From the NCBI GenBank assembly GCA_028293545.1, contig JAQGOP010000053.1:1-64000 (forward strand): a DNA stretch of 64,000 nt, in the 5' to 3' direction. This document shows, in pieces, positions 36,670 to 39,859 of this stretch. The translations under genes and the position numbers were made by a program. Under the pieces are notes generated by a model. That model saw only the letters and a list, made by a program, of their open reading frames with translations, was not told where the DNA came from and did no database searches. This DNA comes from Verrucomicrobiota bacterium (GTDB lineage Bacteria; Verrucomicrobiota; Verrucomicrobiia; Opitutales; Opitutaceae). Every line of letters begins with the position of its first letter. The stretch's first letter is position 1.

Positions 36670-36679
36670 AGCGTTCGGG

Positions 36680-36809
36680 TGGCGCAGGCGGGCCGACTAT
36701 TTTCCGAAGTAGCGAGCAGCGAGCACGCCCGAGCAAATGGCAAACGCACGATTCCGGCACACATGCCTTACTTGCTACTTTCCGGAGCAGGCGGGCCGCC
36801 TGCGCTACC
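36680..36809. repeat. Inverted pair of family-A palindromes (left degenerate) enclosing an agtagcgagca/tgctact inverted repeat
   Basis: ggcgcaggcgggcc (36681) ... gaagtagcgagcagcgagca ... cttgctactttccggagcaggcgggccgcctgcgctacc (~36784-36809). Confidence 0.8.
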
Positions 36810-36830
36810 TAGCGGTAGTGTCCTAATTTG

Positions 36831-37313
36831 CTATCGCATTACGAAACCATCGGCCCTTAACCAGTCAATCGGACGCACGCAGGGTACTCCGAACACGTGC
36901 GCGACGTCGGGAATTTTAATCCTCGATATCACAAGAGGTTTATCTGCGACCTCATGAGTAACGATCTTGTGAGAATGCGTTTTCGCGTAAGCTATTAGGA
37001 ACGGGTCAGCACCACTCAAGAATTTCGCCTTGGCGGAATCAGTGTAGCCGGACTTTTCCACGTGCTCTATTATTGTTTTGGCAGTTTCATTGGCGGCTGA
37101 ATCGAGATGGAGGAAAAGATGCTTTCGGAGGTCTGCCCACTTAGCTAGCTGGTCATTGCCTTTGCAGAGTTCATTCCCGACCTGCCTGATACTGAACGCA
37201 TTTCCGCATGCCTGTTCTTTCTCAACGAAGCTCCAAAATGCAGGACAAATATCGAATGGATAAAATCCATCCTTCGCCTGAATAAAGGTGTTGGAATCGA
37301 GGATGTAGGCCAT
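36831..37313 (-). CDS. DUF4411 PIN-like protein (putative toxin)
   Basis: MAYILDSNTFIQAKDGFYPFDICPAFWSFVE; GADPFLIAYA; TGATG overlap with the upstream gene. Confidence 0.88.
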   Translation of the reverse strand: MAYILDSNTFIQAKDGFYPFDICPAFWSFVEKEQACGNAFSIRQVGNELCKGNDQLAKWADLRKHLFLHLDSAANETAKTIIEHVEKSGYTDSAKAKFLSGADPFLIAYAKTHSHKIVTHEVADKPLVISRIKIPDVAHVFGVPCVRPIDWLRADGFVMR

Positions 37314-38509
37314 CAGGAGACGAATCCGAATCGTTTACCCATCGCGTGGATCGCGCTGGTAGTCTTGAGCCCAAGTAAACCCATGGCATCGCGGTAGAGG
37401 GTTCGCCCTTCAAGCGCGCTGCCAACCAGAGCGTGAGCAAACGTTGGGCTAACTCTAGGGAGTAGAACCGCGTTATAAAACGAAGGGCCGCCTCCATCTC
37501 GTTTCTTGGCCGCGAGCTTTGCGCGGGCAGCCAATTCCTTGAAATGATTTTCCCGGGCGTCGTACATTGCCTGGAATTGTTTTTCTTCAATTGCACCGAT
37601 GTCCTTCAAACGTCGGAGCATGACGAGTACGCTGACCCGGAAATAAGTGCCGAGCCTAGCAATGCGATAATCCGTGAGGGGTATCCCCGAAACTTTCGCG
37701 AGAAGTTCGTTTGTCGGAACCAGTATTTCCGCCGCAACGGCGTTACAGAATTTTTCTACGTCTACTTCTCCAGAATAGGTCTTGGCTAGATTAGAGATGC
37801 CAGAAACTCCTAACCAAATATGCACGATTTCATGCGCCAACGTGAACAACTGGGCTGCTCTGGCGTCGGCGCTGTTCACGAAAATCAGAGGGGCGTAAGG
37901 ATCGGAAAGTGCGAACCCCCGGAACTCGCCAACCGAAAGTCTCCGGTCGTATTCGATGCCCACGGCGTTGTTTCTGAGAACCAATATTCCGCACTCTTCG
38001 ATTCGCTCTATCATCGCAACGAGAGCGGTTTCTTTATTTATCGCCACCGCCCGTTTCACCGTCGAAATGCCCATCGCGGCATTTACTTTCTTGGCGACTG
38101 TCGCCGGATCGTCGCGTAAGGAAACAGATCCAACAAACCAGAGGGGATTAGCGCCCGACTGGATCAAATGATCTTTATACCATGCCTGCTTACGCTGAGC
38201 ATCGTATACGGTTTCCAAGAGGTCGGGGGTGGGGGCATCAATGCCTGCGCCTCCAACGGTCCTAAAGTCGCTTATCGGGAGGGTCTCTTTGTGAGGCTCG
38301 TTAAGATAGAGAAACCCAACGGGCGTGTGGGTGGCATCAGCTAGCTTCTCCAAAATGTCTACGTCGATCTCCCCATCCGTCTCCCATTTCGTAATGTCTT
38401 CTTCGGGAATGCCTAATTTTATCGCCAATTCTTCGGCGTCGAGACGGGCCCGACGTCTCGCCCATGCTAGCACGGAAGGCTCAAGTAAAATGTTCACGGC
38501 GTCCGGCAC
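37313..38509 (-). CDS. XRE-type HTH + ImmA/IrrE metallopeptidase (putative antitoxin/regulator)
   Basis: HTH-like LAIKLGIPEEDITKWETDGEIDVDILEKLADATHTPVGFLYL; HExxH in TLAHEIVHIWLG. Confidence 0.92.
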   Translation of the reverse strand: MPDAVNILLEPSVLAWARRRARLDAEELAIKLGIPEEDITKWETDGEIDVDILEKLADATHTPVGFLYLNEPHKETLPISDFRTVGGAGIDAPTPDLLETVYDAQRKQAWYKDHLIQSGANPLWFVGSVSLRDDPATVAKKVNAAMGISTVKRAVAINKETALVAMIERIEECGILVLRNNAVGIEYDRRLSVGEFRGFALSDPYAPLIFVNSADARAAQLFTLAHEIVHIWLGVSGISNLAKTYSGEVDVEKFCNAVAAEILVPTNELLAKVSGIPLTDYRIARLGTYFRVSVLVMLRRLKDIGAIEEKQFQAMYDARENHFKELAARAKLAAKKRDGGGPSFYNAVLLPRVSPTFAHALVGSALEGRTLYRDAMGLLGLKTTSAIHAMGKRFGFVS

Positions 38510-38733
38510 TCCTTCAAATTAACTGGGTTGTTGGTGTATTGGTCGAGAAGCATTTCGACCAGATTGGACAGCGGTTTCCCCCAGCGGGTGCTAGCTTTCT
38601 TAAGGACCTTAACGTCAAGTGACACTGTAACCTTCCGCTTTCTTTGCCCTGTTGGCGGACGACCAGCCCCGACACGATTTCCACCGTGGCGGAAGCGCAC
38701 CTTCCGTTTTCTAGGCCGATTTGTCTTGTCCAT
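38494..38733 (-). CDS. Small basic ribbon-helix-helix-like DNA-binding protein (79 aa)
   Basis: GGNRVGAGRPPTGQRKRKVTVSLDVKVLKKASTRWGKPLSNLVEMLLDQY; overlaps the ImmA gene start by 16 nt. Confidence 0.65.
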   Translation of the reverse strand: MDKTNRPRKRKVRFRHGGNRVGAGRPPTGQRKRKVTVSLDVKVLKKASTRWGKPLSNLVEMLLDQYTNNPVNLKECRTP

Positions 38734-38737
38734 GCTT

Positions 38738-38762
38738 TTGAATATGGTCATACCGTATTCAA
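38738..38762. promoter_or_regulatory. Candidate palindromic operator between the divergent TA-like operon and transposase
   Basis: ttgaatatggt-cat-accgtattcaa, one mismatch between half-sites. Confidence 0.6.
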
Positions 38763-38775
38763 GTACAAGACGAAA

Positions 38776-39384
38776 ATGATCAACCAACTCTCCCTCGAAA
38801 AGAAAACCAACGCAGTCTCCATGCTCTGCGAAGGTGCGAGCATCCGCAGCATTGAGCGCATGACCGGAATTCACCGTGACACCGTAATGCGCCTTGGGGT
38901 CCGCATGGGCGAAGGCTGCAAGAAGATCATGGACGAAAAGCTCCGTAACCTGAACTCCCGCCTGATCGAGGTAGACGAAGTGTGGGGTTTTGTCGGGATG
39001 AAAAAGAAAACGGCCAAGGCTCTTGGCGCATCTGAGGATATGGGCGACGTTTGGACGTGGATTGCGATTGATGCGGAAACGAAGCTCGTTCCCGCCTTCG
39101 CCGTTGGCGACCGCACGCAGGCCACGGCTGACCCGTTTATCGAAGACCTCGCGAGCCGTCTCACCCATCGCGTGCAAATCTCCACCGATGCCCTCCGCGC
39201 TTACGAGGGAGCCATTGAACGCGCTTTCGGCACCGACGTAGACTACGGATCAATTGTTAAGACGTACTCCAGCGCGCAACTGGAAGAACAGCGTCGATAT
39301 TCTCCCCCTGAGGTTGTGAAGGTGGAGCGTATGGTTGTCAGCGGAAGCCCCGACACTTCCCTGATTTCTACCAGCTATCCCTGA
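38776..39384 (+). pseudogene. IS1-family transposase truncated at its C-terminus
   Basis: DEVWGFVGMKKK...GDVWTWIAIDAETKLVPAFAVGDRT...VQISTDALRAYEGAIERAFGTDVDYGSIVK...VVSGSPDTSLISTSYP then stop; the usual ERxNLTxRM...RRFTRLTNAFSKK tail is absent. Confidence 0.8.
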
Positions 39385-39446
39385 AATCCAACGGAGATAT
39401 TCAGGTGGTGATGCAAAAAGCCGACGCGCGAAAGTTCGCCGCTGCT

Positions 39447-39743
39447 CTAGCGGTAGCGTCGGGAAAGCCTGACGGGGTATAGCTCCGCGATACGAATCAG
39501 CGGTGATTTGCGGGCGGTCCTGAGGCTTTTGACGGTCGGCTCGGGCTTGGCGTCTTTCTCGATCACCCAAAGCTGCGGGACTTCCCGGACGTGTTGCCCA
39601 ACGGCAAGGTGGATAAAGTTGCGGAAGAACCTGCGCTTAATCTCACGCTTTGGTTTCGCAATGTGAGGCAACGGCGGAAGCGAATAACCGCGCACCGCAT
39701 CCAACCTTTCGCGGAGCATTTTAGCTCTCAAAGTCTTGTCCAT
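39447..39743 (-). CDS. Hypothetical protein inside the IS1-like element
   Basis: MDKTLRAKMLRERLDAVRGYSLPPLPHIAKPKREIKRRFFRNFIHLAVGQHV...; no family recognised. Confidence 0.35.
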   Translation of the reverse strand: MDKTLRAKMLRERLDAVRGYSLPPLPHIAKPKREIKRRFFRNFIHLAVGQHVREVPQLWVIEKDAKPEPTVKSLRTARKSPLIRIAELYPVRLSRRYR

Positions 39744-39859
39744 CCCCCACCGGCCTATGCCAACTTCTGCGAGGGAAAAGAATTGATTCAAATTAGGACA
39801 CTACCACCCTAGCATTTCAGTTGACAGAGGTATGCGTGCGCTCTGTTTTGGTTTCTTTT

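Follow-up and report, generated by a model that had tools for sequence, protein, structure and literature searches.

The end of IS1 begins GGT..TG and IS1 itself is less than 1 kb long, while some IS1 subgroups in ISfinder reach several kilobases and include passengers. The transporter IS (tIS) concept, as cited in PMC9330008, covers elements with a single transposase and passenger genes between their ends. In the Tn3 family of transposons, different toxin-antitoxin (TA) modules have been acquired repeatedly and independently (PMC7157771). A 2009 study predicted that operons combining HTH-M78 and PIN proteins are TA systems (PMC2701414). VapC52 of M. tuberculosis cleaves tRNAs; VapB52 binds it in a 1:2 ratio, neutralises it alone and, when exposed to ssDNA, removes the N-terminal domain from itself (PMC13273310). 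RmrA-RmrT pairs represent RosmerTA-type anti-phage systems (PMC10440598).

The locus described here lies in a 64,000-nt stretch of a verrucomicrobial contig, the whole of which is referred to as the window. We are confident in reading it as a decayed IS1-like unit transposon that is immobile alone and most likely retains a functional RHH - HTH/M78 - PIN operon. It contains the following features.

36806-36813, no strand: left flank TACCTAGC, what remains of one copy of the 8-bp target duplication
36814-36830, plus strand: left terminal inverted repeat GGTAGTGTCCTAATTTG, with identical ends at loci L017, L026, L027, L033, L036, L037, L038 and L041
36831-37313, minus strand: predicted toxin, a VapC52-like DUF4411 PIN-domain nuclease of 160 aa (Pfam PF14367, E = 5.8e-43; PDB 9vzy_D, E = 1.6e-13)
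37313-38497, minus strand: predicted antitoxin, a VapB52/RmrA-like HTH-M78 (ImmA/IrrE) peptidase fusion of ~394 aa (Pfam M78, E = 3.2e-15; PDB 9vzy_A, E = 1.7e-24)
38494-38733, minus strand: RHH-like small protein of 79 aa with a putative fold, divergent from the transposase; core gene of the element
38738-38762, no strand: near-perfect palindrome TTGAATATGGTCATACCGTATTCAA, probable operator, in the gap between the RHH gene and the divergent transposase gene
38776-39384, plus strand: IS1-like transposase remnant of 202 aa, with two catalytic Asp residues kept and the catalytic Glu and the C terminus (~70 aa) lost
39385-39788, no strand: unrelated right segment of ~0.4 kb, in the place where relatives have the 3' end of the transposase gene and the AccA gene
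39447-39743, minus strand: ORF inside the right segment, with function unknown or none
39789-39805, minus strand: right terminal inverted repeat, an exact inverted copy of GGTAGTGTCCTAATTTG
39806-39813, no strand: right flank ACCCTAGC, the other copy of the target duplication

The element occupies window positions 36814 to 39805 (2,992 bp, ~3 kb) and is bounded at both ends by perfect 17-bp terminal inverted repeats, as the initial annotation had claimed. No third copy of GGTAGTGTCCTAATTTG within 3 mismatches is found in the window (0.02 expected from shuffles), and at the same tolerance the 3.96-Mb genome contains it outside the window at a single place, on contig C43. The notion that the 17-bp sequence is a common dispersed repeat with no link to a transposase was rejected: it is rare in the genome and, in relatives, occurs in the same places as the transposase. 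The flanks TACCTAGC and ACCCTAGC are identical in 6 of 8 positions, as noted earlier; because this duplication is imperfect, the case for insertion comes mainly from the relatives. The reported drop in GC content is also evident, with 53.0% in the element versus 65.3% and 60.3% in the flanking 3 kb and 62.9% in the window, which places the element at the lowest end of the 3-kb GC distribution within the window. Its neighbours are yqgE and the gene for ribosomal protein L36. To the left of the element, at 36678-36809, there is a REP-like 39-nt imperfect inverted repeat (GGTGGCGCAGGCGGGCCG...), the end of which adjoins the left duplication.

The transposase remnant is transcribed in the plus direction, divergently from the RHH, HTH-M78 and DUF4411 genes on the minus strand. 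Its initial assignment to the IS1 type agrees with a match to the NCBIfam IS1 model (E = 1.5e-19) that, at 70.8 bits, stays under the curated cut-off of 100; the intact transposase of L017 scores above the cut-off of PF03400 (29.4 versus 24.1). With the L017 protein (D67, D137 and E202) as a reference, both Asp residues are kept in the window, where the protein ends in ...STSYP-stop, directly ahead of the invariant catalytic Glu. In 82 aligned sequences (the best 80 of at least 559 matches, L017 and the window), the catalytic D, D and E are present in 82, 82 and 81, respectively, with E missing from the window alone. Since the 3' end of the transposase gene and the accessory gene have been replaced, the window copy cannot move by itself and, judging from its sequence, is defective. 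A transposase search of the genome, which is 84% complete, gives a single match, namely, this remnant. The orphan ORF mentioned in the initial annotation is present at 39447-39743; relatives sought in 288 genomes of the phylum were not found, and it may not be a gene.

In those 288 genomes, a search with the 17-mer and a separate search with the transposase matched the same places. In genome G251 (locus L017), both ends are exact and 3,214 bp apart, with an intact transposase between them, a perfect 8-bp duplication, and cargo that differs from the TA genes of the window; in genome G003, one end adjoins another intact transposase. A transposase-alignment scan of 84,980 species genomes yielded at least 559 matches, the best 80 of which, together with L017 and the window, make up 82 loci, 66 of them delimited by a repeat pair around the transposase. 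These 66 delimited elements, which come from the best 80 of at least 559 matches, are 1,852 to 5,059 bp long (median, 3.0 kb), and 57 have exact 8-bp duplications; their commonest ends are GGTAGTGGGTCAGTTT, GGTAGTGTCTCAGTTT and GGTAGTGTCCTAATTT. The hosts span at least nine phyla (Verrucomicrobiota, Pseudomonadota, Acidobacteriota, Nitrospirota, Planctomycetota, Myxococcota, Thermodesulfobacteriota, Bacteroidota and Rhodothermota), many of their genomes being metagenome bins, so single phylum assignments may be wrong. In intact relatives the transposase is encoded by one ORF of about 276 aa, and relatives on plasmids carry the annotation "IS1 family transposase". At L041 (6840-9931), a second related repeat pair directly adjoins the delimited element, so that two family members may lie in tandem.

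Two small genes accompany the transposase. AccA (~100 aa) is found in 15 of the 66 delimited elements (best 80 of at least 559 matches), usually directly downstream of the transposase gene. Nearly all other elements have AccB (~80 aa), which contains a GGKARA...R..IA..AA..RW motif and is almost always encoded at the left end. Among the same 66, again from the best 80 of at least 559, both genes are missing only from the window and L042. The predicted structure of AccA (pLDDT, 86.7) has an alpha-beta4-alpha arrangement, and a comparison of this model with PDB folds gave no match at E<=0.001. The AccB profile (GGKARA...RW) also matches the P63C-domain cargo of L029, L059 and L076, which would fit a fusion of AccB to cargo; the AccB call in L029 is this P63C protein, and L029 has AccA as well.

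The space between the ends is filled by 1 to 3 kb of cargo, often TA or defence genes, which together with a conserved small accessory gene is the rule in this family. Cargo classes rest on Pfam scans and clustering. The HTH-M78 (ImmA/IrrE) type, recognised either directly by Pfam or through clustering with members that Pfam identifies, is found in 18 of 66 delimited elements (best 80 of at least 559 matches). Pfam also identifies SocA_Panacea (L017, L063 and L070), Zeta toxin (L034), RelA_SpoT (L024), PIN (L040 and L080), HigB-like or Gp49 with HTH (L056 and L057), Fic (L100), AAA_14-DUF4143 (L041), AbiEii-like AAA (L077), nSTAND/AAA (L074), AlbA_2 (L038), DNA methylase (L033, L081 and L092, the last with HNH) and NYN (L095) cargo. 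At least one recognisable TA or defence gene is present in about half of the delimited elements (34 of 66, among the best 80 of at least 559); the cargo of the remaining ones consists of ClpP-like, proteasome-like or P63C proteins or of unknowns. In L017, the SocA_Panacea antitoxin gene is followed by a gene for a 127-aa protein with a hydrophobic stretch, as in a Panacea-type TA arrangement. Among 134 cargo ORFs of elements from the best 80 of at least 559 matches, HTH_3 occurs in 20 and M78 in 15, whereas among 135 flanking ORFs of the same elements HTH_3, M78 and PIN each occur at most once and no family has more than two members (Fisher test, 5e-6 for HTH_3 and 2e-4 for M78). PADLOC detects RmrA in up to 16 ImmA-type members (best, 4.9e-183) and RmrT in two. 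Related transposases with different cargo are seen in L033/L034, in L067/L081 and in the sister element of the window, L024, whose transposase is 78% identical and whose cargo is RelA_SpoT instead. A search for copies with other cargo between the same ends, as initially suggested, succeeded with the SocA_Panacea module of L017, where the search for the 17-bp repeat in related genomes had found identical ends around an intact transposase.

Each cargo protein of the window aligns along most of its length with a different chain of the solved complex 9vzy, the antitoxin match to 9vzy_A spanning residues 4-342. Judging from chain lengths and HExxH numbering, 9vzy (and 9vzz) is apparently the VapBC52 complex of M. 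tuberculosis. Residues D6, E48, D103 and E121 of the toxin are the counterparts of the four acidic residues needed by VapC52, and all are kept, as are the HEIVH and DFR motifs of the antitoxin. The identity of the antitoxin to 9vzy is low, and a cysteine of 9vzy (GMCLY) aligns with an alanine in the window (GFALS), suggesting that the trigger may differ. The match of the window antitoxin to the RmrA models of PADLOC is moderate (best, 2.6e-19). Its GTG start codon overlaps the RHH stop codon (GTGA), and its own stop codon overlaps the toxin start (TGATG). By domains, adjacency and catalytic residues, the cargo is a VapBC52-type HTH-M78 plus DUF4411 TA module with predicted activity, and the operon is apparently intact. 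Nine verrucomicrobial relatives of the antitoxin, six of them adjoining a PIN gene, have none of these ends in the flanks retrieved; the transposon would therefore have acquired a module of general occurrence.

The initial annotation placed an RHH gene in the TA operon. All three genes are there, with the RHH gene corrected to 38494-38733 (minus strand), and the HTH-M78 plus DUF4411 module stands, but the RHH protein is probably a regulator of the element itself rather than part of the original TA module or cargo. This follows from a gene at the same position in L017 (58% identity over 50 aa, E = 1e-14) and from the palindromic core GGTCATACC common to the short intergenic regions of the window and L017, ~30 bp before the transposase start. 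Elements on the branch closest to the window have an RHH gene that diverges from the adjoining transposase gene, and the TA genes of the window probably became coupled behind the RHH gene. Relatives of the RHH protein sought in PDB were not found, and RHH profile counts across the family, contaminated by ORFs antisense to the transposase, were not used. The palindrome TTGAATATGGTCATACCGTATTCAA at 38738-38762 is a probable operator; 1.5% of shuffles score equally well, and by the same simple score most palindromes upstream of other transposases are no better than shuffles. In L024, L026, L030, L033 and L034, inverted box pairs (e.g., TTGTTAACAA and TTATTGTAGCACAA) are found 90 bp upstream of the transposase gene; they seem to bracket a promoter-like TTGAC and are probable element-specific operators.

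A search for the empty site in sister genomes showed that the element is absent from the yqgE-L36 site in all congeners whose region could be read, and only one of these contains the 12-bp end. Right-end-like stretches of 8 to 12 bp occur in three element-free congeners.

L105 597-608 (genome G330): right-end-like TAGGACACTACC
L106 2653-2662 (genome G060): right-end-like GGACACTACC
L135 near 2050 (genome G340): right-end-like ACACTACC

All three stretches occupy an identical position ahead of the L36 promoter and may be left over from an earlier insertion, mark a hot spot for insertion, or be host sequence that resembles the end; the history of the site is therefore not simple. Short end pairs, ~130 to 140 bp apart and gene-free, are found at L003 (1501-1641, on C43 of the same genome) and at L020 (5289-5417). 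They enclose palindromic GTAGGGCGGGATCACCG-type sequence and resemble MITE-like derivatives.

A helper transposase encoded elsewhere might still move the defective copy in trans, making it a MITE-like vehicle for the TA operon. Both ends are perfect, and the 140-bp pair without a transposase on C43 would fit such activity, but with no second transposase match in the 84%-complete genome, a single full-length copy and an eroded duplication, we consider this improbable. Even less credit is due to the reading of the locus as a defence or TA island with incidental repeats, whose operon came by homologous recombination or another vehicle with the transposase as a bystander. The antitoxin relatives outside elements, six of nine beside a PIN gene, are what it would predict; it is disfavoured to the point of being very improbable by the dozens of loci in which the same ends mark this transposase family with exact duplications, and by the recurrence of TA cargo between those ends.

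The least improbable alternative, though still an unlikely one, concerns the operon: in a three-component TA system, the true antitoxin would be RHH, with HTH-M78 acting as an activator by cleaving a partner repressor, as proposed in general terms for COG2856 systems (Makarova et al. 2009). The GTGA and TGATG overlaps of the three genes are compatible with it, and PIN toxins are often paired with RHH antitoxins (PMC2701414); however, the RHH gene occupies the same place in L017 with other cargo, and VapB52 neutralises VapC52 unaided (PMC13273310). The decayed transposon with its own RHH regulator remains the preferred reading. The initial suggestion of an IS that acquired an addiction module holds for the IS1-like element and the TA module, given L017-type ends, exact duplications and swapped cargo; a simple IS with a chance addiction module it is not.

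For the intact relatives, we infer that the single-ORF DDE transposase very probably acts on the 16- to 17-bp terminal repeats and generates the 8-bp duplications, moving exchangeable cargo and the small accessory gene. In the window copy, replacement of the transposase 3' end and the accessory gene would have abolished self-mobility, most likely leaving a translationally coupled operon of RHH, HTH/M78 antitoxin and DUF4411 PIN toxin as the functional remainder. The likely binding site of RHH is the palindrome that separates the divergent genes. Cleavage of tRNA is the probable activity of the PIN toxin, which the large antitoxin would hold in check; by homology with VapBC52, ssDNA exposed by damage or phage would activate the M78 peptidase, and the antitoxin would then remove its own toxin-binding N terminus, freeing the toxin to stop growth in abortive infection or addiction.

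TA and defence genes spread fast among bacteria, and their smallest vehicles are poorly known. Compact ~3-kb elements in many phyla would give such modules a simple way to spread that can be tested, and their ends would permit a boundary-based search for new ones, as anything between them qualifies. They would also tie two unknown small proteins, AccA and AccB, to transposition, and the window copy, with a dead transposase and an apparently intact TA operon, illustrates a plausible fate. Rather tentatively, at somewhat less than even chances, these elements might constitute a so far undescribed lineage, spread across phyla, of IS1-like unit transposons, dedicated vehicles for TA and anti-phage genes with AccA or AccB as integral parts, in one branch of which the RHH operator can couple cargo to transposase expression. 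The open papers searched, including those on ISMhu11 and passenger genes, contain no description of such a lineage; ISfinder was outside this comparison.

Like the IS1 family, these elements have a DDE transposase apparently related to the IS1 models, 8-bp duplications (exact in 57 of 66 delimited elements among the best 80 of at least 559 matches; 6 of 8 positions in the window) and ends that begin GGT..TG. They differ from it in their size of 1.85 to 5 kb, with an accessory gene and cargo inside the ends, and in the single uninterrupted ORF of the intact relatives, and the window remnant scores under the curated IS1 cut-off. As the insA/insB frameshift arrangement of classical IS1 is absent, we call the family IS1-like only. 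Genes without a role in transposition lie between the terminal repeats of one element, as in transporter IS, whereas the conserved AccA/AccB, the divergent RHH regulator of one branch and the strong bias toward TA and defence cargo set the family apart. It shares with TA-carrying Tn3 transposons the variety of TA modules in one transposon family, but its transposase is unrelated and the element is far smaller; between the window ends, Tn3 transposase, resolvase and a res site were sought and not found, the IS1-like transposase being the only one. RosmerTA resembles the window module in its HTH-ImmA antitoxin, matched by the PADLOC RmrA models and of a type seen in 18 of the 66 elements (best 80 of at least 559), but the partner in the window is a PIN nuclease and the RmrA match is moderate (2.6e-19). 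The closest counterpart is VapBC52 of M. tuberculosis, which has the same combination of a DUF4411 PIN toxin and an HTH-M78 antitoxin, with the catalytic Asp/Glu set and HExxH kept; the window version differs in its low identity, one changed cysteine, its overlap with an upstream RHH gene and its location on a verrucomicrobial transposon.
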